Shown: positions 66-41,048 of the stretch, in pieces
Layout of the letters: each line of letters opens with the position of its first letter
Position numbering within the stretch: position 1 is the stretch's first letter
IMG/VR virus record: IMGVR_UViG_3300034107_001011
Span: 1-41,048 of that record
Source: a virus
Length of the DNA stretch: 41,048 nt
Direction: 5' to 3' (one strand)
Made by a program: the position numbers and the translations under genes
The notes under the pieces: model-generated
Told to the model about the DNA's origin: nothing
Database searches by the model: none
The model's input: only the letters and a program-made list of their open reading frames with translations

Positions 66-644
66 ATGCAATATTGCCAAGTCAATCCAAACGGTCAAAT
101 CTCCGGCCCACAGTGGCTACCACAGTCCTTCACGACTGTATCCAATTTCAACGCCCTCGACGATGCAAGTTTAGCCACATACGGCTATTACCCATACACC
201 TCGTCGCCCATACCATCGTTTAACCCTGCCACACAGCGACTCTCCCAGAGCTTTGCCTTTGACGGCACATCTGTGAGCGATACATGGGCGGTCATTAATC
301 TGACAGCGGAAGAACAGCAAGCATACGTCATTCAAAGGCTCACCGAAATCGGTAACGGCATCGGCTCATTTCTTGACCAAGCAGTGTCTGTCAAGCAATA
401 CGATTCCATCCTGTCAGCCACAAGCTGGACGCTCTCCAACATCACAACTTACAAGTCTGAAGGTGATGCCGCAATCGCTTATCGCGACTCCATCTGGAGT
501 CTGTTTTACAACATGGTTCAGGCTGTTCAGGCGGGTACTCAGGCTGTCCCTACGGTGGGCGAGTTCTTTGCATCCCTGCCACCACTCTGGCCAACAAACA
601 ACGGCAACGGAACAGCCAACGGAACAGCTAACGGGCCAATCTGA
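66..644 (+). CDS. Tail-fibre-associated protein, DUF4376-like C-terminal part
   Basis: A 192-aa protein. Roughly residues 80-175 show the pattern of small phage tail-fibre or fibre-assembly proteins: a segment ending in YDSILSATSW, then an EGDAAIAYRDSIWSLFYNMV-like helix, then a PTVGEFFASLPPLWP-like end. The last 15 residues are a low-complexity NGNGTANGTANG tail. It is the first complete gene of the late operon and overlaps the next start (TGATG). The resemblance is to a pattern I recall rather than a measured hit, so the role as a virion or fibre-assembly component is tentative. Confidence 0.55.
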   Translation: MQYCQVNPNGQISGPQWLPQSFTTVSNFNALDDASLATYGYYPYTSSPIPSFNPATQRLSQSFAFDGTSVSDTWAVINLTAEEQQAYVIQRLTEIGNGIGSFLDQAVSVKQYDSILSATSWTLSNITTYKSEGDAAIAYRDSIWSLFYNMVQAVQAGTQAVPTVGEFFASLPPLWPTNNGNGTANGTANGPI

Positions 645-853
645 TGACTTTCAGTGCTGCCGCCAAGAACTTTGTCTTTCTCATCACAGTTGCAATCTTG
701 TTGCTGATTGTTGATCTGATCAAGTGGCAAAGCGGCGGCGTGACATGGTCTGAAGCGATCTGGGAAGTCAATCAGCACAGTCTCAGCTTTGCACTCGGTG
801 TTGGAATCGTCCTGGGCCACTGCTTCACCGTTCCAAGAGGGCTATCCAAATGA
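644..853 (+). CDS. Small membrane protein, holin-like
   Basis: A 69-aa protein with two likely membrane segments, about residues 7-25 and 47-60, separated by a short polar loop. It is the first of three consecutive small hydrophobic or mixed genes ahead of a secreted protein and a protease. Size and topology fit a class II-type holin, but holins share little sequence, so the call rests on topology and context. The start overlaps the previous stop (TGATG). Confidence 0.5.
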   Translation: MTFSAAAKNFVFLITVAILLLIVDLIKWQSGGVTWSEAIWEVNQHSLSFALGVGIVLGHCFTVPRGLSK

Positions 854-1095
854 CTGGCAGAGAATTTCTTGACTGGATGCTAGGCAGACAAAAGCCAAGC
901 CTTGAAGAAATGGCTAAACGTCTAGCACGCCAAAAGGCTATTGAGCGGTATTCCGTGGATTCCAGACGGCATGCCCAATTGGTCACCCAGCTCGTCAATG
1001 TGCCTCCACCAGTGTTCCAACACTATCTGGACGATCCAAATTACGTCTGGAACCCCAGCGTCATCCCAGTACCACCTAAACCAAGGCCGATCTGA
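850..1095 (+). CDS. Small basic protein of unknown function
   Basis: An 81-aa protein not recognised. The N-terminal half is rich in Lys and Arg and predicted helical; the C-terminus is Pro-rich (VPPPVFQHYLDD, then VIPVPPKPRPI). It overlaps the previous gene by 4 bases (ATGA), indicating translational coupling inside the membrane-protein cluster. No signal peptide or membrane segment is visible. It may be a spanin-like or accessory lysis factor only by position. Confidence 0.6.
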   Translation: MTGREFLDWMLGRQKPSLEEMAKRLARQKAIERYSVDSRRHAQLVTQLVNVPPPVFQHYLDDPNYVWNPSVIPVPPKPRPI

Positions 1096-1108
1096 AACAG
1101 GAGAATTG

Positions 1109-1372
1109 ATGATGAGTGACGACGATTTAAAGGGATTGCCATCGGTTTATGGATATCTAAATATCCAAGAGTTGTCGAAAACTTTGCTAAATGCGCTTCA
1201 GGTCGGGAGTTTTTCTGCTTTCGCGCTCACCTTGCTGACCGTTATACTGGATAACGCGAATGCGATTTACGTTGGGCCTAAAGCAGCACTTGTCATCTCG
1301 ATAGCCTCTATGCTAGCTACCGTGCTAAGGGCGCGACAAGTCGGATCAAGATATCTACATGAAGGCGAATAA
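1109..1372 (+). CDS. Two-segment membrane protein, holin-like
   Basis: An 87-aa protein with two hydrophobic stretches, about residues 30-47 and 55-72, and a basic C-terminus. AGGAG lies 5 bases before the first ATG (1109) and 8 before a second in-frame ATG (1112), so either may be used. Together with the 644 and 1375 genes it forms a run of small membrane proteins beside the C1A protease gene, which is why a holin/antiholin role is suggested. Confidence 0.55.
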   Translation: MMSDDDLKGLPSVYGYLNIQELSKTLLNALQVGSFSAFALTLLTVILDNANAIYVGPKAALVISIASMLATVLRARQVGSRYLHEGE

Positions 1373-1374
1373 GC

Positions 1375-1659
1375 ATGACAGGTGACGAACATCAACTGCA
1401 AGATCTCGGCTGGCTCGCGGCACCGATGTGGATGCTCCTTTCCGCTGTTGAAATTGCTGGTGCTGTTTCCGAACCTGTCAAGCCTGCCATGAGCCTTGCT
1501 CACCACCTGATAGATGCCCTGCCGGGCTTGATTGCCGCAGGTATAGGCATACTTCACTGGTGGTCTATCAATAAGTACCGCGAAAAGAAGCTCGAAAACG
1601 AGTTGAAAATCGCTGAACTTGAGGTGCAACCGCGCCGCCGACCCGGCCCATCGTCGTGA
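1375..1659 (+). CDS. Small membrane protein with cytoplasmic coiled tail
   Basis: A 94-aa protein with one or two hydrophobic segments (about residues 11-32 and 46-63) followed by a charged helix rich in Lys and Glu and an RRRPG end. It starts 2 bases after the previous stop. The topology fits a holin or a membrane anchor for a lysis factor. A perfect 12-bp hairpin follows shortly after the stop. Confidence 0.55.
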   Translation: MTGDEHQLQDLGWLAAPMWMLLSAVEIAGAVSEPVKPAMSLAHHLIDALPGLIAAGIGILHWWSINKYREKKLENELKIAELEVQPRRRPGPSS

Positions 1660-1687
1660 GACGAAAGGTCGGTTACTTCCAGGCAAG

Positions 1688-1715
1688 ATGTTCCCGAAAT
1701 CTGTTTCGGGAACAT
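1688..1715 (+). terminator. Perfect 12-bp hairpin after the membrane-protein cluster
   Basis: ATGTTCCCGAAA pairs with TTTCGGGAACAT around a four-base TCTG loop. No T-run follows on either strand, so it is not a textbook intrinsic terminator; it could pause RNA polymerase, stabilise upstream mRNA or block exonucleases between 1375-1659 and the gene at 1753. Confidence 0.5.
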
Positions 1716-1752
1716 ACCTTAAGTCTCTATCCCAAGAAGGGTAAGGTGATCT

Positions 1753-1995
1753 TTGTTCGCTGAGTACCTGATCTATACCGTTCAGTCATGCCAGACAGGG
1801 CAATGCCCAGTTGCCAAGGAATCCTCGGTGGTTGCCACAACGACCACCACAATCGAGCAAAAAGGGGTCACGGTTCAATTCCGGCCTCCCCGACCGATCA
1901 ACGGCAAGCCACGACCACCAAGAGCGTTAATCGTCAAACCAAGGCTGTTTGGGCCAAGGTTGATTTATCTCCAGCCAGTCGAGGATGCCAAATGA
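1753..1995 (+). CDS. Small Pro/Arg-rich protein with a Cys pair, TTG start
   Basis: An 80-aa protein not recognised. The only sensible start in this frame is TTG, preceded by AAGGGTAAGG at good distance. An SCQTGQC cysteine pair sits near residue 12, a Thr-rich stretch follows, and the second half is a Pro/Arg-rich tail (FRPPRP, KPRPPRA). The stop overlaps the next ATG by 4 bases, which supports its being translated. No signal peptide is clear. Confidence 0.5.
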   Translation: MFAEYLIYTVQSCQTGQCPVAKESSVVATTTTTIEQKGVTVQFRPPRPINGKPRPPRALIVKPRLFGPRLIYLQPVEDAK

Positions 1996-2180
1996 TCAGC
2001 AAGATCATCATCCGGTTGCTGACGCCCATCATCGTAGAGGTGATCCGCGAACTGCTTTCCAAGCTAGCCAACGGTGAGCTAGTCTCTATCGACGAATCCA
2101 GCGTCAAAACAGCGATGAACCAGCGTGAAGACTCGATTCAGTCCCAACTTAAATCTGTAAAGTGGGATGTAGGATTATGA
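1992..2180 (+). CDS. Small amphipathic or membrane-associated protein
   Basis: A 62-aa protein starting with a hydrophobic/amphipathic helix (MISKIIIRLLTPIIVEVI) and ending with a charged helix. It is coupled at both ends by ATGA overlaps, so it belongs to the same transcript as the secreted protein and the protease. Function unknown; a membrane-binding role is inferred from the N-terminus. Confidence 0.55.
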   Translation: MISKIIIRLLTPIIVEVIRELLSKLANGELVSIDESSVKTAMNQREDSIQSQLKSVKWDVGL

Positions 2181-2707
2181 AGCGAATCATTGCCGTTTGC
2201 CTTGCGTTGGTTCTGGCTATGGGTGCCTCCCCGATGGATTTGGGGAACATTCAGAGTCGATCTTTGCCAGTTTTATCAGAGCCTAGTTGGACGTTCTCTG
2301 ATGCTGGAAGCACGTATTTCATAGGCAAGTTAAGCGGCAATGTCATTATTGTGAGATCGGGGGACAACCCGTCCCCCGCTCCCATACCTCCACCGATTCC
2401 TGACGAGAACAAGCCAGTCCCAATCGCTGGTGCCAAGTGGTTTAGCGTGATTGTCGATGCCAACAAGCCGGAGCAACAGGCATGGCGAACCGATGCAAAA
2501 TTGCGAAAGGCTCTGTCAGATCGAGGGATCGAGTTCAGGTCGTATACAAGCGAGGAAGCGGACATAAACACACTCGGCTTTCAGACTATCGTTGGGCAAA
2601 CAGGCATGCCGTGCGTGATTGTTCAGGGCGAGATGGGAAACACTTTGAAGTCGATCAGCCCGAAGACGATTGATGATATCCAAAAGATTGCCGAGGTACT
2701 CAAATGA
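2177..2707 (+). CDS. Secreted thioredoxin-fold-like protein
   Basis: A 176-aa protein. The start at 2177 overlaps the previous stop and gives a clear signal peptide: Lys-Arg, then a hydrophobic core (IIAVCLALVLAMGAS) with cleavage likely near residue 18-22. A Pro-rich linker follows near residues 70-85, then a domain of about 90 residues with an alternating beta/helix pattern ending in a GQTGMPCVIV segment, resembling a thioredoxin-fold core with a cis-Pro region but without a CxxC pair. It is ATGA-coupled to the cysteine protease, suggesting joint action in the cell envelope. The fold call is visual only. Confidence 0.5.
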   Translation: MKRIIAVCLALVLAMGASPMDLGNIQSRSLPVLSEPSWTFSDAGSTYFIGKLSGNVIIVRSGDNPSPAPIPPPIPDENKPVPIAGAKWFSVIVDANKPEQQAWRTDAKLRKALSDRGIEFRSYTSEEADINTLGFQTIVGQTGMPCVIVQGEMGNTLKSISPKTIDDIQKIAEVLK

Positions 2708-3498
2708 GCCTTGATGTATGGATAGTACCCAACGGCGATCCACGGTTCCTCGGCAGTTTCCCTGCCCCTAACGGACTTAAACTTTCAACGAAATTCGTCT
2801 TACCTGATTTGCTCGATTCCGAAATCAAAGAGTTCGATTTACGAACTAACCCAGGCTATCCCGTATGCGTCAAAGATCAAAACGGCAGGGGTGCTTGCAA
2901 CGGTCATGCCGCAGCGTCGAGCTTTGAAGATGCTTGGTGGATCGCAGGGCAACCGTATAAACCCATGTCAGCATGGTCAATTTATGCGCCTTTGTGCAAC
3001 GGATGGGACGTTGGCTCAAGTATTGCAGAGGCATTGCAGCTGCTCCAAGAAAAAGGCGTCTCAGAAGAGGCTCTGGTTCCCTATGGCACCATCAATCCCA
3101 ACAATTTGAGCCGGGCGGCTTTAACCAATCGTGGACGATACCGGATTGAAATTGGTTGCAAGCTGACCTCATTTCGAGATATGGTTGTCGCTTCGCATAT
3201 GCGGTTGCCGTTTAACTTTTCCGTTCCCGTAAATAGTGGATTCAACAATCTTGACGCTGAAGGCGTACCTAACAACAGGCCCGGCGTTCACAATCATGCT
3301 GTTTCTGGTGGATTTGCCTTGAAATGGTCGGCCAAGTACAAATGGTTGATCCCAACACGCAATTCCTGGTCGGAAAAATGGGGCTTGAAAGGTTACTTCA
3401 ATACCGCTGAAAAGACGGTACAAGGCACGCATTTTGATGCTTATTGCGTCATGGCGACAATCACCGACCCAGAAGGCTTGCCTCCAGCAATCAGGTAA
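2704..3498 (+). CDS. Papain-like (C1A family) cysteine protease
   Basis: A 264-aa protein with the C1A catalytic set in order. The oxyanion Gln and nucleophile lie in DQNGRGACNGHA (Q59, C65), the catalytic His in VHNHAVSGG (H198), and the Asn in TRNSWSEKWGLKGYF (N220), where papain has NSWGxxWGxxGY. The length matches a mature C1 peptidase with a short N-terminal extension and no signal peptide. It follows several small membrane proteins and a secreted protein, where phages usually place the endolysin, and no muramidase or amidase is seen in the window. A lytic role against a protein-rich envelope is inferred; virion proteolysis is the alternative. Confidence 0.85.
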   Translation: MSLDVWIVPNGDPRFLGSFPAPNGLKLSTKFVLPDLLDSEIKEFDLRTNPGYPVCVKDQNGRGACNGHAAASSFEDAWWIAGQPYKPMSAWSIYAPLCNGWDVGSSIAEALQLLQEKGVSEEALVPYGTINPNNLSRAALTNRGRYRIEIGCKLTSFRDMVVASHMRLPFNFSVPVNSGFNNLDAEGVPNNRPGVHNHAVSGGFALKWSAKYKWLIPTRNSWSEKWGLKGYFNTAEKTVQGTHFDAYCVMATITDPEGLPPAIR

Positions 3499-3577
3499 GT
3501 TTTTCCGGTTTTACATTTCGTAGCATCAACATACCCAGATATTCTTGAATGAGAATATAAACAATGGGGTATGTATC

Positions 3578-4336
3578 ATGCCAGAGCTAGAGAAGGTCTA
3601 CAAGCAGTCACTCATTCTGGAACGCTCCACAGATAACCCCTCAGGTGGTTTTTCTGGCTATGGCAGCGTTTTTCATACGCTTGACTTCCACGGCGACATC
3701 GTTGCCAAGGGTGCTTACAAGGATGATATACCCCGATTCCTGAAATCGGGCTTTGTAGGTGGCCCAGACCACAATCACGCCAACCCCATTGGCCGATTCA
3801 AGACGGCATCCGAGGATGAGCGTGGCCTTTATGTCGAAGCTGTTTTCTCGTCTACTGCGTTTGCCCAAGAGGCTCGCACAAACATTTCGGAAGAAGTCGT
3901 CAAGTTCCTCTCAGTAGGCATCATGCCGTTACAGGTCAAGCGGTTCAAGACCAAGAATGAGGTTTTGAAATACTGGACTGAAAACGGTTATAAGCCAACG
4001 GAAGAAGAAGTTGTGCGTGCTGAGGGTGGTGCCAGGTTGATCAAGCGAGCCAGGTTGCTCGAGATTAGTCCAACAGCCTTACCAGCAAACGAGAACGCTG
4101 AAATTACAAGTTACAAAGCTGGGCGAATGATATCGGCCAGTAACGTGGACTTAATCAATCAGTCGGTTACTGAAATGAAAATGTCAATACAGAGGCTGGA
4201 GGACTTGGTAGCCAGTGTGGTTGCCGCTCAAGCCAAAGAGGAAGCGGAAGAAGCATCTGAGATCACTGTGATCAATGATCCGCTGGAAGTTTTCGAGGTC
4301 ACTTTAGCCTCTTTCAAATCATTTATCGAAGGATAA
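3578..4336 (+). CDS. HK97-type prohead maturation protease
   Basis: A 252-aa protein of the U35/HK97 prohead protease family (herpesvirus assemblin fold). A GYGSVFHTLDFHGDIVAKGAY start is followed by GPDHNHANPIGRF, which holds the catalytic His (H65 or H67), and VKFLSVGIMP, which holds the nucleophile Ser (S112). The typical LLEISPTALPANENA segment follows. It cleaves the scaffolding delta domain of the capsid protein encoded 6 bases downstream. ATG 3578 is preferred over the upstream TTG at 3545 because GGGG precedes it and similarity begins there. The last 60 residues are acidic and helical. Confidence 0.92.
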   Translation: MPELEKVYKQSLILERSTDNPSGGFSGYGSVFHTLDFHGDIVAKGAYKDDIPRFLKSGFVGGPDHNHANPIGRFKTASEDERGLYVEAVFSSTAFAQEARTNISEEVVKFLSVGIMPLQVKRFKTKNEVLKYWTENGYKPTEEEVVRAEGGARLIKRARLLEISPTALPANENAEITSYKAGRMISASNVDLINQSVTEMKMSIQRLEDLVASVVAAQAKEEAEEASEITVINDPLEVFEVTLASFKSFIEG

Positions 4337-4342
4337 ACAACG

Positions 4343-5668
4343 ATGAGTACACTACGATTGAAAGCCGATTTCAAGTCGGCTCTGGCCGAAGCTGAAGCTC
4401 TGAAACTCAAGGATAATCGCGACGATACTGATGTCGCACGGTTCAAGCATCTTGCTGAGACCACCTTGCCAGCCCTCAAATCTCAGATCGAAGCGCAAGA
4501 ATCTGTGGATGCATTTTCACTCGATTCCTATGCCGATCTCACCAACAAGTCTGTTGGCACGCCATATAGCGCGGGCCGCGCCGCTGGTTCCGTTCGTGTT
4601 TCAGCCGATGGAGAAGCCGAAGATTTTGGGCCAGGTTCGCTGACAGATCGTCAGTTCAAGAACATCTCAAAGCCGGAATACAAGAAAGCGTTTCGCGCCT
4701 TCCTGCACTACGGCGAAGACAAGATTCGCGACCGCTACCCGTCTACCTTCAAAGCTCTTGTTGAAGGCATTGATGAAGGTGCTGGGTTCTTCGTTCCCCC
4801 AGATATGCTCTCCGAAGTCATTCAACGCAAGCCTGCCCCAACAAGCATGCGTGGCCGAGTTCGTCAGATCTCAACCACATCTAACCGTGTGACGATGCTG
4901 CGGACAAAGTACTATGATCCGATCTACACATCGCCTATCACAGGGCAGTGGACGGGTGAGGCTGGCAATCCTGCTGAGTCGGCAGTACCAACCTTTGGTG
5001 AATGGCAGATCCCAATCCATGAGTACATGGGTCGTCTGTCCCTCTCCAACACCCTGATCGACGATTCAGGATTCTCTATCGAAGGTTATCTGGGCCAAGA
5101 AATTGGCAACTGGATGGATCTTCACTATGAGCAGTTTCTGACCAACGGTACTGGTATCGGCCAGCCTAAGGGTGTTTGGGCAACGGCAGGACTGCCGCTT
5201 GGCCCAGGTGCGCCGGGTTCTGTTCAAACTGCTGCTTCTGGCGTACTTGATCCCGATGTTGTCAAATCCATGCGGTTTAACATCTTACCTCAGTACGAAC
5301 AGAAGAACTTTTCGTTCATCATGAACCAAAGCTCGGCCAAGGTCATCAGCCTGATGAAGTCAACGGGTGGCGTTTACCTGTTCCAGCGGGGACAGAACTA
5401 TCCCGGCATCGTCGAGCCAGTACCTGATTCCGTAGACGGTTTCCCAATCGTTTACAACCAGTTCGCACCTGATATTGCTGCTGGTAGCTATCCGATCCTG
5501 TTCGGCTCGCTACAGGGCATGTTCATGCCACAGCGTCTCGGTCTCACCATGCGGGTTCTCAACGAAATCGAAGCAGTCAACAATCGCCGGGTATACCTCT
5601 TCCGTTTGCGATGGGGTTCTGACCTGATTCAAGAGCAATATCTGAAGTTCTTGCAAATCAAACCTTGA
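4343..5668 (+). CDS. Major capsid protein, HK97 fold
   Basis: A 441-aa protein. Residues 1-105 are highly charged and helical, the expected scaffolding delta domain. The core begins near residue 115, with the typical EGIDEGAGFFVPPDMLSEVI turn at 141-160, then beta-rich segments and a C-terminal region (RVLNEIEAVNNRRVYLFRLRWGSDLI) common to HK97-like capsids. It lies directly after its protease, with GAAGGA before the start. The gene is followed at once by a copy of the TGTCAACGCT motif. Confidence 0.93.
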   Translation: MSTLRLKADFKSALAEAEALKLKDNRDDTDVARFKHLAETTLPALKSQIEAQESVDAFSLDSYADLTNKSVGTPYSAGRAAGSVRVSADGEAEDFGPGSLTDRQFKNISKPEYKKAFRAFLHYGEDKIRDRYPSTFKALVEGIDEGAGFFVPPDMLSEVIQRKPAPTSMRGRVRQISTTSNRVTMLRTKYYDPIYTSPITGQWTGEAGNPAESAVPTFGEWQIPIHEYMGRLSLSNTLIDDSGFSIEGYLGQEIGNWMDLHYEQFLTNGTGIGQPKGVWATAGLPLGPGAPGSVQTAASGVLDPDVVKSMRFNILPQYEQKNFSFIMNQSSAKVISLMKSTGGVYLFQRGQNYPGIVEPVPDSVDGFPIVYNQFAPDIAAGSYPILFGSLQGMFMPQRLGLTMRVLNEIEAVNNRRVYLFRLRWGSDLIQEQYLKFLQIKP

Positions 5669-14825: not shown

Positions 14826-15323
14826 ATGTCAGATCGATGGAGAGCCGGAGAACCCCTGAGTGCCTCAAAGCTGAATCGGCATAGTGCATCCAATGCCCAG
14901 ATCAATTTCAGCGGCAATGGCTACATGGAACGCACAGGGAATAACTGGGGCATTGATAATCCATCTCCATCAGCAGTGGAATCATTCTGGGTGAGCGTGG
15001 ATCGGGAAGAGGCGATTACGTACGAGACCTCAACATCAACTCCCTATACGCCCGGCTCGCCATCCACCACAACGAATCATTCCCGTACCGTTTATCGTTA
15101 CGAATGGACAGAGGTCAGGTTTGATAAGACGTTTGGATGCTGGACAAAGACAGGCGTGACCGGGCATATGGGTGCTGATCCACTCATGAACTATGATCCG
15201 ACTCAGAGGATACCGCTCACAGAAGATGCGGTGACATCCCCGTTTTCGGGGATGCCCATAGTAAAAGGCATCGTTCCAGTGGTGCGAGACCCTCAATGTG
15301 GTCAGCTCTTTTTTTTTTCCTAG
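14826..15323 (+). CDS. Distal tail or fibre protein, N-terminal part before the T10 tract
   Basis: A 165-aa frame that begins like phage tail proteins (WRAGEPLSASKLNRHSASN, a common start of distal tail and fibre proteins) and ends in a run of phenylalanines followed at once by Ser and TAG at the T10 homopolymer. GAAAGG lies before the start. The end is abrupt, and the next frame continues with compatible sequence, so this is best read as the first part of a protein of about 810-820 residues joined at the T tract. Confidence 0.65.
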   Translation: MSDRWRAGEPLSASKLNRHSASNAQINFSGNGYMERTGNNWGIDNPSPSAVESFWVSVDREEAITYETSTSTPYTPGSPSTTTNHSRTVYRYEWTEVRFDKTFGCWTKTGVTGHMGADPLMNYDPTQRIPLTEDAVTSPFSGMPIVKGIVPVVRDPQCGQLFFFS

Positions 15324-17262
15324 AGGGTGCAAATTCCCAACGGCACCGAAGTGGCCTTGCTACAAATATGGGTTTGGCGGCTTGATGGAGTTTGTTTATT
15401 TAGATCTTAAAGATCCTGATACTGGTGAATGGTATCCCAATCCGGCGATCTTCAATCCCGACGAAGTCTTCCACGTTCAAGATTTTCGCGTTGGCGATGT
15501 GATGGGTACCGATGGTGAAATGCACCGGGTAAGAGGATACTCTGGTTGGTATTTTCAAGCCATGGCATCAACGGCTCAGGTCGATGTGAATGCTAGCCAA
15601 CAGGCAGAGGCAGATCCGCAGGAGCGAGCCAACTGGAAAAACCTTGTAGATTACTGGTACGACCGACCACAGTTTGTTGATCCACCTGTTCACGATGGCA
15701 AAGAATTTTACAACCTTGATTATCTATGGAAAGGAATACCTGAGTTTGAGGGCAATTCGTTTGTTGCTGTAAACTCTATAACTGGTGGAGGCTCTGGCAA
15801 TCCGGGTGGAGGTTCTGGTGGTACGACATTGCCTGGTGGCGGATATAACGACTGGGATATGGGTTATGGTGCGTATACATTTCCAGGCCCAATTTCGATG
15901 AGCTATCTTTATGGCTGGCATGGTGATACTAGATGGCAAGGCGAAGCTAACCCCGCTTTAAATCATACGATGCGGTTTAGCATGGCTGGAAAGTGCAAGG
16001 TCAGGTTACATGGCAGAACGCCCATTATGGGCGATTGGTCTACTGGTGGCTCATGGTTGCCAGAGGGCGAGAACGACAAAATCAGCATCATGCCCGGGCA
16101 AGACAAACTGATCGTCATTGATGGTATGCGAGGAATCAGAATACGAACGTCTGGGTGGTTTGCCCACTTTGGCGATCACGTTATTAAGTCGAGAAAGTAT
16201 GACCCTAATTTCATTTTCTGGGGATCTGGGAATTCTGTGAACTGGTATAACGAAGGCCAGCCAGTGCCTTGTGAAGGCGATTTATATGGGCAAGGAACTG
16301 ACGCATATAGCTTTGACCAGCAGGGAAATATCGTTTACAATAACGCGATGGAGGTTGCCGCTCAGCATCACTGGTGGATTGGTCAATGGTGCGACAACAA
16401 CCCTAACAGCGGACTGGATCGTTACAGCCTTGATGCAACGCTGAAACTCTGGAAGAAGAATACCCAGCTAAATCAGAGGGTGCCTGATCCTTACAAGGTC
16501 ATCATAAGTGCATCGCCGTATAACGCTCAGTACTATGATACGCCTGCCGATGCAGTCGTTTACGCAAAAGCTCAGGAAAGGCAGTCTGTACACGAATTTA
16601 ATCCCAATCACGATCCTAACGGAATTGAATGCGAGCCAAACTACGCCAAATCAATTGGCATCATTTTCAATCTACCTGAAACGCGAGATAAGTATAGTTA
16701 TGGGCATATCGAGATCAAGCACAAGGGGCATATCGTAGGCTCATGCTTTTGCAGAGCGTATTCTGGCTATTTAGGGTGGGCAACGCTCTTTAACGATGCA
16801 ATCAGATGGCGTCCAACCGACAACAGCATCTTCCCTAATTATGGTGGTGGATTGCCGATTCCAAGCACTGAGAAAGACCCAAACCAAGAAGGCACGCCTA
16901 TGCAAAGGCACGATGCCATGACCATCGCGATGCCGTTCGGCGATCAAAACATGGATTTCCTGCCCAAATGCGGCATCCATATCACCACCGTTGGCAAGAC
17001 AAATGTACCCTATGTCATCAAGTCGTTCACCAATATCCCATCAAACATAGCAACGCCGAATAGCGTTACCATTGACTGGGGGGATGGCTCGGCAACGGAA
17101 AATGCCACGACAATTGGCACAACCTTCACGCATACCTATACTGCCAAAGGCTACTACAAAATACGCATCACGATCAACTATACTCTAGTACCCGGCGTAA
17201 CAACGGATTTTGTCGTGCAATCTGGCAACGAACTGACTCACATTCTCGTAAAGGATGCATAA
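15298..17262 (+). CDS. Tail fibre / adhesin-like protein, C-terminal part with PKD-like domain
   Basis: A 654-aa frame overlapping the previous one by 26 bases. The apparent GTG start has no ribosome site and its first codons encode the same Phe run, so expression probably comes from a frame change at 15309-15318: a 9-T version would read GQLFFFPRGCKFPT without a break. A Gly/Ser linker (GGGSGNPGGGSGG) near residue 160 separates two halves. Near residues 590-628 a PKD-like domain is visible (DWGDGSATENA, then HTYTAKGYYKIRITI), typical of surface adhesins. A host-binding role is inferred. Confidence 0.68.
   Translation: MVSSFFFPRGCKFPTAPKWPCYKYGFGGLMEFVYLDLKDPDTGEWYPNPAIFNPDEVFHVQDFRVGDVMGTDGEMHRVRGYSGWYFQAMASTAQVDVNASQQAEADPQERANWKNLVDYWYDRPQFVDPPVHDGKEFYNLDYLWKGIPEFEGNSFVAVNSITGGGSGNPGGGSGGTTLPGGGYNDWDMGYGAYTFPGPISMSYLYGWHGDTRWQGEANPALNHTMRFSMAGKCKVRLHGRTPIMGDWSTGGSWLPEGENDKISIMPGQDKLIVIDGMRGIRIRTSGWFAHFGDHVIKSRKYDPNFIFWGSGNSVNWYNEGQPVPCEGDLYGQGTDAYSFDQQGNIVYNNAMEVAAQHHWWIGQWCDNNPNSGLDRYSLDATLKLWKKNTQLNQRVPDPYKVIISASPYNAQYYDTPADAVVYAKAQERQSVHEFNPNHDPNGIECEPNYAKSIGIIFNLPETRDKYSYGHIEIKHKGHIVGSCFCRAYSGYLGWATLFNDAIRWRPTDNSIFPNYGGGLPIPSTEKDPNQEGTPMQRHDAMTIAMPFGDQNMDFLPKCGIHITTVGKTNVPYVIKSFTNIPSNIATPNSVTIDWGDGSATENATTIGTTFTHTYTAKGYYKIRITINYTLVPGVTTDFVVQSGNELTHILVKDA
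15309..15318 (+). other. T10 tract: frame-change or slippage site
   Basis: Ten consecutive T residues sit exactly where the frame of the 14826 gene ends and that of the 15298 gene takes over. Loss of one T (or gain of two) joins the frames. It may be programmed transcriptional slippage, phase variation of a receptor-binding protein, or a homopolymer sequencing error. Confidence 0.7.
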
Positions 17263-20973: not shown

Positions 20974-21169
20974 TAAAATCGTCTCCGAATATGCCAGAAA
21001 TCAGACCGTCCAGATAACGTAGTTCCGTAATTGTCGCCAAGGATTCACCCTCTTGAGTCTGTTCGCACAACAGCACGAAATACTGGTTTAGGTGGAGTTG
21101 GATAAGCCTCAGGTGCTTCGGCTGGATGCCGATTAGAGAGTGGAGAGTTTCGTCTTTAATCTTCGTCAT
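20960..21169 (-). CDS. Small protein of unknown function
   Basis: A 69-aa protein from ATG 21169, which overlaps the GIY-YIG stop by 4 bases and has AGAAGGG upstream. Composition is mixed (HLRLIQLHLNQYFVLLCEQ helix). No recognised family. Confidence 0.52.
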   Translation of the reverse strand: MTKIKDETLHSLIGIQPKHLRLIQLHLNQYFVLLCEQTQEGESLATITELRYLDGLISGIFGDDFSANP

Positions 21170-21864
21170 TTGCAAAACCCTTCTTCTGGATCGTAACAAT
21201 TCTCGCAATGAATTGCCCAAAAGGTCGTGTTGACTGTCATTTCGCCAGCATCGCACCAACTTCTACAGGATTCGCAAAGAATCTTGCCTTTATGCTCCCC
21301 ACACTTTTGTGTAGCGGAATCAAGCATCTCGCGTTCTTGGAATCCTTCACCATAATATTCTTCAATCAGATCGCAATCCAAGGTCGCGTTGCAAGTTTGA
21401 ACAAGATCACGTACGACAGGGTTAAACACGCCCTCTGGCTCGTTGCGTGTAAAAGGGCTGTTTATTGCAGACGAATATTCCACAACACGCCTAGAAACAA
21501 TCTGGGGTTTGCGGTTCAACTTCTCGTTGACAAGATTAGCTCCAAGGTTAGCGTAATGTAATTGCCAATGCTGTTCCGCTGAGTCAAGCTCCCCCGTATT
21601 GCCGCATTCAGCTAAAACGACAACTAATGGTGCTAGATCCTGATTTGTCAGGCTGGAAACCCATCGCCCTCGTTTGCTCCTGTCCCTATTGCTTGTTCGC
21701 AAATGCGATCTATAGCGGCGTGCAATATCTTTGGACTGCCCGACATACTTGGTCTCTCCGCTCACAGGATCAATCAGCGAGTAAACGCCACATATGCCCG
21801 GCGGCGGGCAATCCCTGTAAAGTTTGGCGATAGGCTTGTAACTCGGTTTAACGCTACTCATCAT
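21166..21864 (-). CDS. GIY-YIG family nuclease with C-terminal zinc ribbon
   Basis: A 232-aa protein. GVYSLIDPVSGETKYVGQS is the GIY-YIG pair (residues about 26-44), followed by the catalytic Arg region (ARRYRSHL) and a Glu in AEQHWQLHY. The C-terminal 60 residues hold two Cys pairs and further Cys (CGEHKG, CESCRSWC, CENCYDPEEGFC), likely a zinc-binding DNA-recognition module. It may be a homing-type or resolving nuclease. ATG 21864 or 21861 lies inside the preceding Cys-rich gene. Confidence 0.78.
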   Translation of the reverse strand: MMSSVKPSYKPIAKLYRDCPPPGICGVYSLIDPVSGETKYVGQSKDIARRYRSHLRTSNRDRSKRGRWVSSLTNQDLAPLVVVLAECGNTGELDSAEQHWQLHYANLGANLVNEKLNRKPQIVSRRVVEYSSAINSPFTRNEPEGVFNPVVRDLVQTCNATLDCDLIEEYYGEGFQEREMLDSATQKCGEHKGKILCESCRSWCDAGEMTVNTTFWAIHCENCYDPEEGFCK

Positions 21865-21988
21865 CAGTCTCGATCTCCCATCCGCACAAGCATTTCTCTT
21901 GATGTTTGCCGCACTTCTCGCAATAAGCATCGCACTCACACAGCACCCAGATTTCTTCGCAATCTGGGCATTTGTCGTCAGAGTTCAT
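21854..21988 (-). CDS. 44-aa Cys-rich zinc-binding protein
   Basis: A short gene with AAGGAG 6 bases before ATG. Eight Cys occur in pairs (CPDC, CEC, CEKC, CLC), a double zinc-ribbon-like arrangement. It overlaps the upstream gene by 4 bases (ATGA) and the downstream GIY-YIG gene start by 8-11 bases. Strong ribosome site, coupling and Cys spacing make it convincing despite its size. Confidence 0.7.
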   Translation of the reverse strand: MNSDDKCPDCEEIWVLCECDAYCEKCGKHQEKCLCGWEIETDDE

Positions 21989-40819: not shown

Positions 40820-41048
40820 CCTGCCAGCCCTGAGGGCTGGCAGATCATGGCAGATCATATCAACAGGGCACCTGCCAGCCCTGAGGGCTGGCAGATCATG
40901 GCAGATCATATCAACAGGGCACCTGCCAGCCCTGAGGGCTGGCAGATCATGGCAGATCATATCAACAGGGCACCTGCCAGCCCTGAGGGCTGGCAGATCA
41001 TGGCAGATCATATCAACAGGGCACCTGCCAGCCCTGAGGGCTGGCAGA
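40820..41048. repeat. 4.5 perfect copies of a 51-bp hairpin repeat at the window end
   Basis: Units start at 40820, 40871, 40922 and 40973 and a partial one at 41024; all visible copies are identical. Each unit holds CTGCCAGCCC-TGA-GGGCTGGCAG (10-bp stem, 3-base loop) and two copies of GGCAGATCAT. The stem resembles the preceding terminator stem. The window ends inside the array, so the true copy number is unknown. Confidence 0.9.

Follow-up and report, generated by a model that had tools for sequence, protein, structure and literature searches.

To our knowledge, nearly all known lysis systems of double-stranded DNA phages end in a peptidoglycan hydrolase. We analyzed a 41,048-nucleotide (nt) stretch of viral DNA (IMG/VR record IMGVR_UViG_3300034107_001011, positions 1 to 41,048; hereafter the window), in which a cassette of small genes at 644-3498 ends in a papain-family (C1A) cysteine protease directly preceded by the gene for a predicted exported partner protein. 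The cassette resembles holin-endolysin cassettes in that small membrane-protein genes stand ahead of a signal-less soluble hydrolase within the structural (late) block, and differs from them in that this hydrolase is a C1A protease, an exported partner is inserted ahead of it, and no holin or spanin family is matched. Papain-superfamily cysteine peptidases are known as viral lytic enzymes from methanogen viruses (PeiW and PeiP, family C71), and we know of no thioredoxin-like partner for these. They share with the window protease its superfamily and its viral origin, and differ from it in belonging to family C71 and acting on pseudomurein; CHAP and NlpC/P60 endolysins share the predicted papain-like fold and Cys-His catalysis but are of other families and cut peptidoglycan. 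These pseudomurein endoisopeptidases are mentioned in two papers (PMC10318531 and PMC12596118), the second of which, a survey of prokaryotic viral lytic proteins, mentions neither papain nor planctomycetes.

Short C1A peptidases of the xylellain type have been described, in a single sentence, as acquisitions of Caudoviricetes and Mimiviridae (PMC10380794); the mere presence of a C1A gene in a tailed phage is therefore no novelty. Like these, the window protease is a short single-domain C1A enzyme with no recognizable I29 domain, and its best PDB match appears to lie among them; in the papers searched, none of them is described as paired with a thioredoxin-fold-like partner or as standing behind holin-like genes, as the window protease does. 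Baculovirus V-CATH is a virus-encoded C1A protease that digests host protein structures and aids the spread of progeny (PMC9965964), but it belongs to an insect virus, derives from a eukaryotic cathepsin and acts together with chitinase. A C1 peptidase with 24.9% identity to the window protease also lies beside a small-partner gene on the small Priestia megaterium plasmid NZ_CP085450 (L037:4983-6177), where the partner is a chagasin-type I42 inhibitor encoded downstream, whereas the window partner is encoded upstream and is thioredoxin-fold-like. In the open-access literature, outside which most subscription journals fall, no paper that we found connects C1A proteases with lysis cassettes of phages or with the partner described here, and a phrase search there returned no papers on Planctomycetes phages. 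The new point, and a stronger one than the reading of the cassette as a lysis system, is a partner-protease pair conserved across unrelated phages.

The partner and protease gene pair

Judged by its sequence, the last gene of the cassette (2704-3498) encodes a real C1A protease, as the initial annotation had proposed. It matches PF00112 at 40.3 bits against a cut-off of 20.7 (E 4.9e-10), and the residues Q59, C65, H198 and N220 are intact and invariant in five phage relatives, down to ~26% identity; the catalytic Gln, Cys, His and Asn are also readable in the protease sequences of two jumbo-phage contigs (L028 and L031). A profile of the five phage relatives retrieves 119 distinct PDB sequences at E ≤ 0.001, the best of which, 3ois (1.2e-13), is the sole match under E 1e-12 and is an entry that we take to be xylellain, a bacterial protease. 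About 40 amino acids (aa) lie ahead of the mature protease domain, with no match to the I29 propeptide in Pfam, and the protein has no signal peptide. With 3ois as its closest solved match, a short N-terminal extension and no I29, the protease looks xylellain-type. An AlphaFold2 model from a four-sequence alignment reached a predicted local distance difference test score (pLDDT) of only 31.6, so assignment of the papain fold rests on sequence; alignments for folding were built from window and viral-contig sequences only.

The gene immediately upstream (2177-2707) had been taken for a secreted thioredoxin-like protein. Its product does carry a signal-like hydrophobic N-terminal segment, followed by a linker rich in proline and then by strands and helices ordered much as in thioredoxins. 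The family assignment is less secure: the protein has no family in the databases searched and no match among PDB sequences, and its model, which has the thioredoxin-like order of secondary structure, is weak at pLDDT 48. Thioredoxin-fold structures are frequent among the top Foldseek matches to this model, none of them under E 0.001. A redox role for the partner is unlikely because it has no CxxC motif, its only cysteines being C8 and C146.

Homologues of partner and protease occur in the same order and with the same 4-nt overlap in LR756511, a 595-kb uncultured phage, and the same pair, with a 1-nt overlap, is found in five more viral contigs (L010, from 187 kb; L011, 51 kb; L028, 341 kb; L029, 103 kb; and L031, 19 kb), L029 being nearly identical to L028. 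Homology between the window and the jumbo-phage sequences is detected by hhalign for both the protease (prob 99, E 2.1e-18) and the partner (prob 95, E 2.6e-8), and protease identity between the small-phage and jumbo-phage groups is 24-30%. When all window proteins were compared with the whole of LR756511 by tblastn, matches were limited to the protease, CsrA-like proteins and an HNH nuclease. Because the window and LR756511 otherwise share almost nothing, the two genes seem, from these comparisons, to have been exchanged as one block among highly dissimilar phages, an argument for a joint function of partner and protease.

Genes 3′ of the pair in the jumbo contigs encode a helical protein of 149-221 aa, two exported proteins, one of ~620 aa and one resembling cytochrome c, and a repeat protein. 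The planctomycete-type cytochrome domain PSCyt1 scored above cut-off beside the pair in 3/6 records and in 0/14 control genomes. The exported cytochrome-c-like genes lie at L010:9245-10108, L028:9646-10563 and L031:9579-10460; planctomycete-type cytochromes encoded by phages would be unusual. The PSCyt1 genes hint that jumbo phages with the pair have Planctomycetota-like hosts, and they say nothing direct about the host of the window phage. The protein-rich host envelope suggested in the initial annotation thus has only indirect support, which comes from the three jumbo contigs with PSCyt1 genes beside the pair. That Planctomycetes synthesize peptidoglycan is by now established.

Cassette layout and the search for an endolysin

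Eight plus-strand open reading frames (ORFs) occupy 644-3498, co-directional with the structural genes and lying between a tail-fiber-side gene (66-644) and the gene for an HK97-type prohead protease (3545-4336). Where available, ratios of nonsynonymous to synonymous substitution (dN/dS) and identities are given against the relative introduced below:

66..644, plus strand: 192-aa protein at the end of the tail-fiber block; its stop overlaps the cassette start (TGATG); no family
644..853, plus strand: 69-aa small membrane protein, a holin-like candidate; dN/dS 0.14
850..1095, plus strand: 81-aa soluble protein; 4-nt overlap with the preceding gene; dN/dS 0.065; no family
1106..1372, plus strand: 88-aa protein with two transmembrane segments, the best holin-like candidate in the cassette; dN/dS 0.23
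1375..1659, plus strand: 94-aa protein, charged at the C-terminus, in which two hydrophobic segments are marginal; relative 95% identical, dN/dS 0.16
1690..1713, no strand: perfect 10-bp inverted repeat GTTCCCGAAA-TCTG-TTTCGGGAAC; one match, 0 expected
1753..1995, plus strand: 80-aa protein with a TTG start; overlaps the next gene by 4 nt; 78% identity, dN/dS 0.30
1992..2180, plus strand: 62-aa protein with a hydrophobic helix at its N-terminus; overlaps the next gene by 4 nt; 76% identity, dN/dS 0.13
2177..2707, plus strand: 176-aa partner protein, predicted to be exported; signal-like N-terminus, proline-rich linker and C-terminal thioredoxin-fold-like domain without CxxC
2704..3498, plus strand: 264-aa C1A cysteine protease, apparently xylellain-type; PF00112 E 4.9e-10; dN/dS 0.066
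3545..4336, plus strand: HK97-type prohead protease (S78), next after the cassette; PF04586 E 1.1e-13; PHROG head maturation protease
4343..5668, plus strand: major capsid protein (HK97 fold), first of the head/tail block; PF05065 E 1.6e-40

All eight cassette ORFs, at the positions initially annotated, are present and colinear in a relative, IMGVR_UViG_3300034121_001926 (46,570 bp; about 87% identical, with nucleotide identity mostly 80-94% across aligned stretches), with dN/dS of 0.065-0.30, and are therefore genes. Chance ORFs were considered and ruled out, each ORF being conserved and under purifying selection; constraint on the cassette protease (0.066) is similar to that on the prohead protease (0.085). 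The homologue of 66-644 follows the fiber genes in the relative (90% identity, dN/dS 0.11), where a CxxC-rich ORF is also inserted between cassette genes 1 and 2. The overlaps do not link the whole series, as had been supposed, but form two coupled runs: 66-644/644-853/850-1095, with overlaps of 1 and 4 nt, and 1753-1995/1992-2180/2177-2707/2704-3498, with overlaps of 4 nt each. Between the runs sit 1106-1372, 10 nt past the first run, and 1375-1659, 2 nt further on; a gap of 93 nt, in which the hairpin at 1690-1713 lies, then precedes the second run. The relative has a hairpin of other sequence within the same gap.

Three small membrane proteins had been predicted. Two are clear: 644-853 has one strong and one weaker transmembrane segment (hydropathy peaks 2.53 and 1.58), and 1106-1372 has peaks of 1.89 and 1.78; the third, 1375-1659, is marginal (1.53 and 1.46). 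A single N-terminal hydrophobic helix is also found in 1992-2180. The likeness of the small membrane proteins to holins is one of topology only. No family and no match in phage records was found for 644-853, and 1106-1372 and 1375-1659 have no relatives besides those in 3300034121_001926. Conventional lysis cassettes with the same holin-like genes were also considered, and there are none, with no relatives past 3300034121_001926 and no phage-record matches.

As had been noted from the sequence, no peptidoglycan hydrolase is recognizable in the window by profile scans. Profiles for lysozyme, Amidase_2, SLT, M23, NlpC/P60, M15 and Amidase_3 gave no match in window or relative while controls matched, and CHAP gave none in Pfam scans of either; a GH19 search, in which no control genome matched, is not counted as evidence. 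The window is without the portal and tail fibers, both of which the relative carries immediately 5′ of the cassette, and this missing part amounts to 7 kb. Genes extra in the relative encode portal, fiber, head-fiber and structural proteins along with small unassigned ORFs. Pfam scans of its remaining genes found no lytic family; fiber-block proteins and three unassigned proteins were rescanned singly, and for one protein group the PHROG results comprise the best 25 of 87 families, the Pfam list there being complete. The absence of a recognizable endolysin, raised as a question for the rest of the genome, thus holds beyond the window at the level of these sequence searches, the relative covering the missing part; a divergent endolysin in window or relative is possible. 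Relatives of the portal have no fiber and cassette insert between portal and prohead protease, and elsewhere they retain a gene annotated as an amidase or as lysozyme-like.

By gene content, the carrier genome is that of a temperate HK97-type tailed phage. Pfam and PHROG assign an integrase, terminase, S78 prohead protease, HK97 capsid protein, head-tail connector and tail proteins, and further genes encode a YqaJ nuclease, primase, helicase, ThyX and two CsrA-like proteins. The HK97-type set (terminase, portal, S78 protease and HK97 capsid protein) is complete, with the portal visible in the relative only. The two CsrA-like regulators of this one temperate phage (22305-22595 and 28107-28409) both resemble one place in LR756511. 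A GIY-YIG nuclease ORF (21166-21939) lies in a region of the window not kept in the relative, and the tail-region protein at 15298-17262 has a weak C-terminal match to a PKD domain. A tRNA search found none, and promoter and terminator scans stayed at background level. The ends of the relative's contig have 119 bp in common, which makes it circular or near-complete, although closure is not proven because the shared sequence is itself repetitive. The window's end (40820-41048) lies within 4.5 identical copies of a 51-bp unit arranged as a perfect tandem array, and the ends of the relative's contig fall in a palindrome-rich repeat that separates the portal from a GP88 gene; it looks as if both assemblies broke off at one and the same site.

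Progeny release and competing functions

We prefer, at a probability of about 0.4, to read 644-3498 as a late-gene cassette in which small membrane proteins and an envelope-directed, two-gene module of partner and C1A protease promote the release of progeny. The lysis-like cassette of the initial annotation survives in its upstream membrane-protein genes, its signal-less protease and the missing endolysin, and loses ground where a holin family match would be expected. We favor a release-promoting module because the genes lie in the structural block and adjoin membrane-protein genes, and because no other lytic enzyme is recognizable and the protease has no signal; that the module is a conserved, envelope-directed one is suggested by the recurrence of the ordered, overlapping pair in jumbo-phage contigs. 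By elimination and position, lysis is the best reading, plausible but unproven. The partner would be exported beforehand to a periplasm-like space and the protease would accumulate in the cytoplasm, until at least one of the small membrane proteins permeabilizes the inner membrane and lets it reach the envelope. There, the partner may assist, anchor or restrain the protease, which would cut proteins or peptide cross-links and so promote progeny release. Late expression, membrane permeabilization, the substrate, the role of the partner and lysis itself are all parts that we infer.

Several observations weigh against this proposal. No cassette member matches a known holin, spanin or endolysin family, and for the small membrane proteins Pfam, PHROG and NCBIfam yielded no holin family. 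Papain-family enzymes act on proteins and leave glycan strands uncut, and a host walled by peptidoglycan could be lysed this way only through a peptide substrate. Scans of cellular genomes for relatives of the window found none and thus name no host. The site of the cassette between fiber and head genes equally fits a virion protein, profile searches would miss very divergent endolysins, and LR756511 encodes an M23-type peptidase at ~258 kb (L014:1408-2016, 202 aa) among nucleotide and methyltransferase genes, possibly the separate endolysin of that jumbo phage. Finally, the jumbo pair heads an operon of exported proteins with no obvious holin near.

This last arrangement, in which the pair leads exported proteins that include cytochrome-like ones and does not stand beside holin-like genes, favors the alternative that survives best: partner and protease would modify the envelope during infection, by superinfection exclusion or by shedding or processing surface proteins, and the upstream membrane-protein genes would be separate. 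The 93-nt gap and hairpin that part the membrane-protein run from that of the pair would suit such a division, as would an exported partner. The protease, however, has no signal peptide and would need another route to the envelope, and the window pair sits inside the structural block with no other lysis enzyme recognizable; we regard envelope modification as unlikely, if still to be taken seriously.

The cassette's place right after the tail-fiber genes and ahead of the head genes would also suit a protease carried by the virion or tail that breaks down a protein surface layer at entry; protein-coated hosts are plausible, and such an enzyme would need no signal peptide. At 264 aa, though, the protease is small, and neither a fiber-attachment nor a carbohydrate-binding domain is recognizable in it. 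The partner translationally coupled to it is predicted to be exported, which is ill-suited to a virion part, and the jumbo pair lies within an operon of exported proteins. These features make a virion protease improbable.

Lower again in our estimation is lysis by an unrecognized divergent endolysin or a single-gene-type lysis protein encoded elsewhere, with the protease gene as an accessory or a moron. A number of conserved proteins in the window fall into no family, the limits of profile searches leave room for such an enzyme, and the M23 peptidase of LR756511 offers a parallel, but no second conserved membrane-protein cluster stands out in window or relative, the whole cassette is conserved, and the protease is among its most constrained members. 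Very improbable is a second morphogenesis protease trimming fiber, portal or tail proteins during assembly, which would fit a gene in the structural block adjoining that of the S78 prohead protease but is opposed by the presence of that dedicated enzyme, by a coupled exported partner that misfits cytoplasmic assembly, and by the retention of the same pair in jumbo phages of very different gene content.

The release-promoting reading of the window can be extended to both groups of phages, small temperate and jumbo, which would then release progeny by envelope proteolysis, partner and C1A protease replacing an endolysin, probably in Planctomycetota-like hosts. We consider this broader form doubtful. 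If true, a protease-based module common to unrelated phages would amount to a different route of release or envelope attack, and would offer a way into hosts with little-studied phages. It would also open to direct testing what C1A proteases, hitherto noted only as acquired genes, do in tailed phages.

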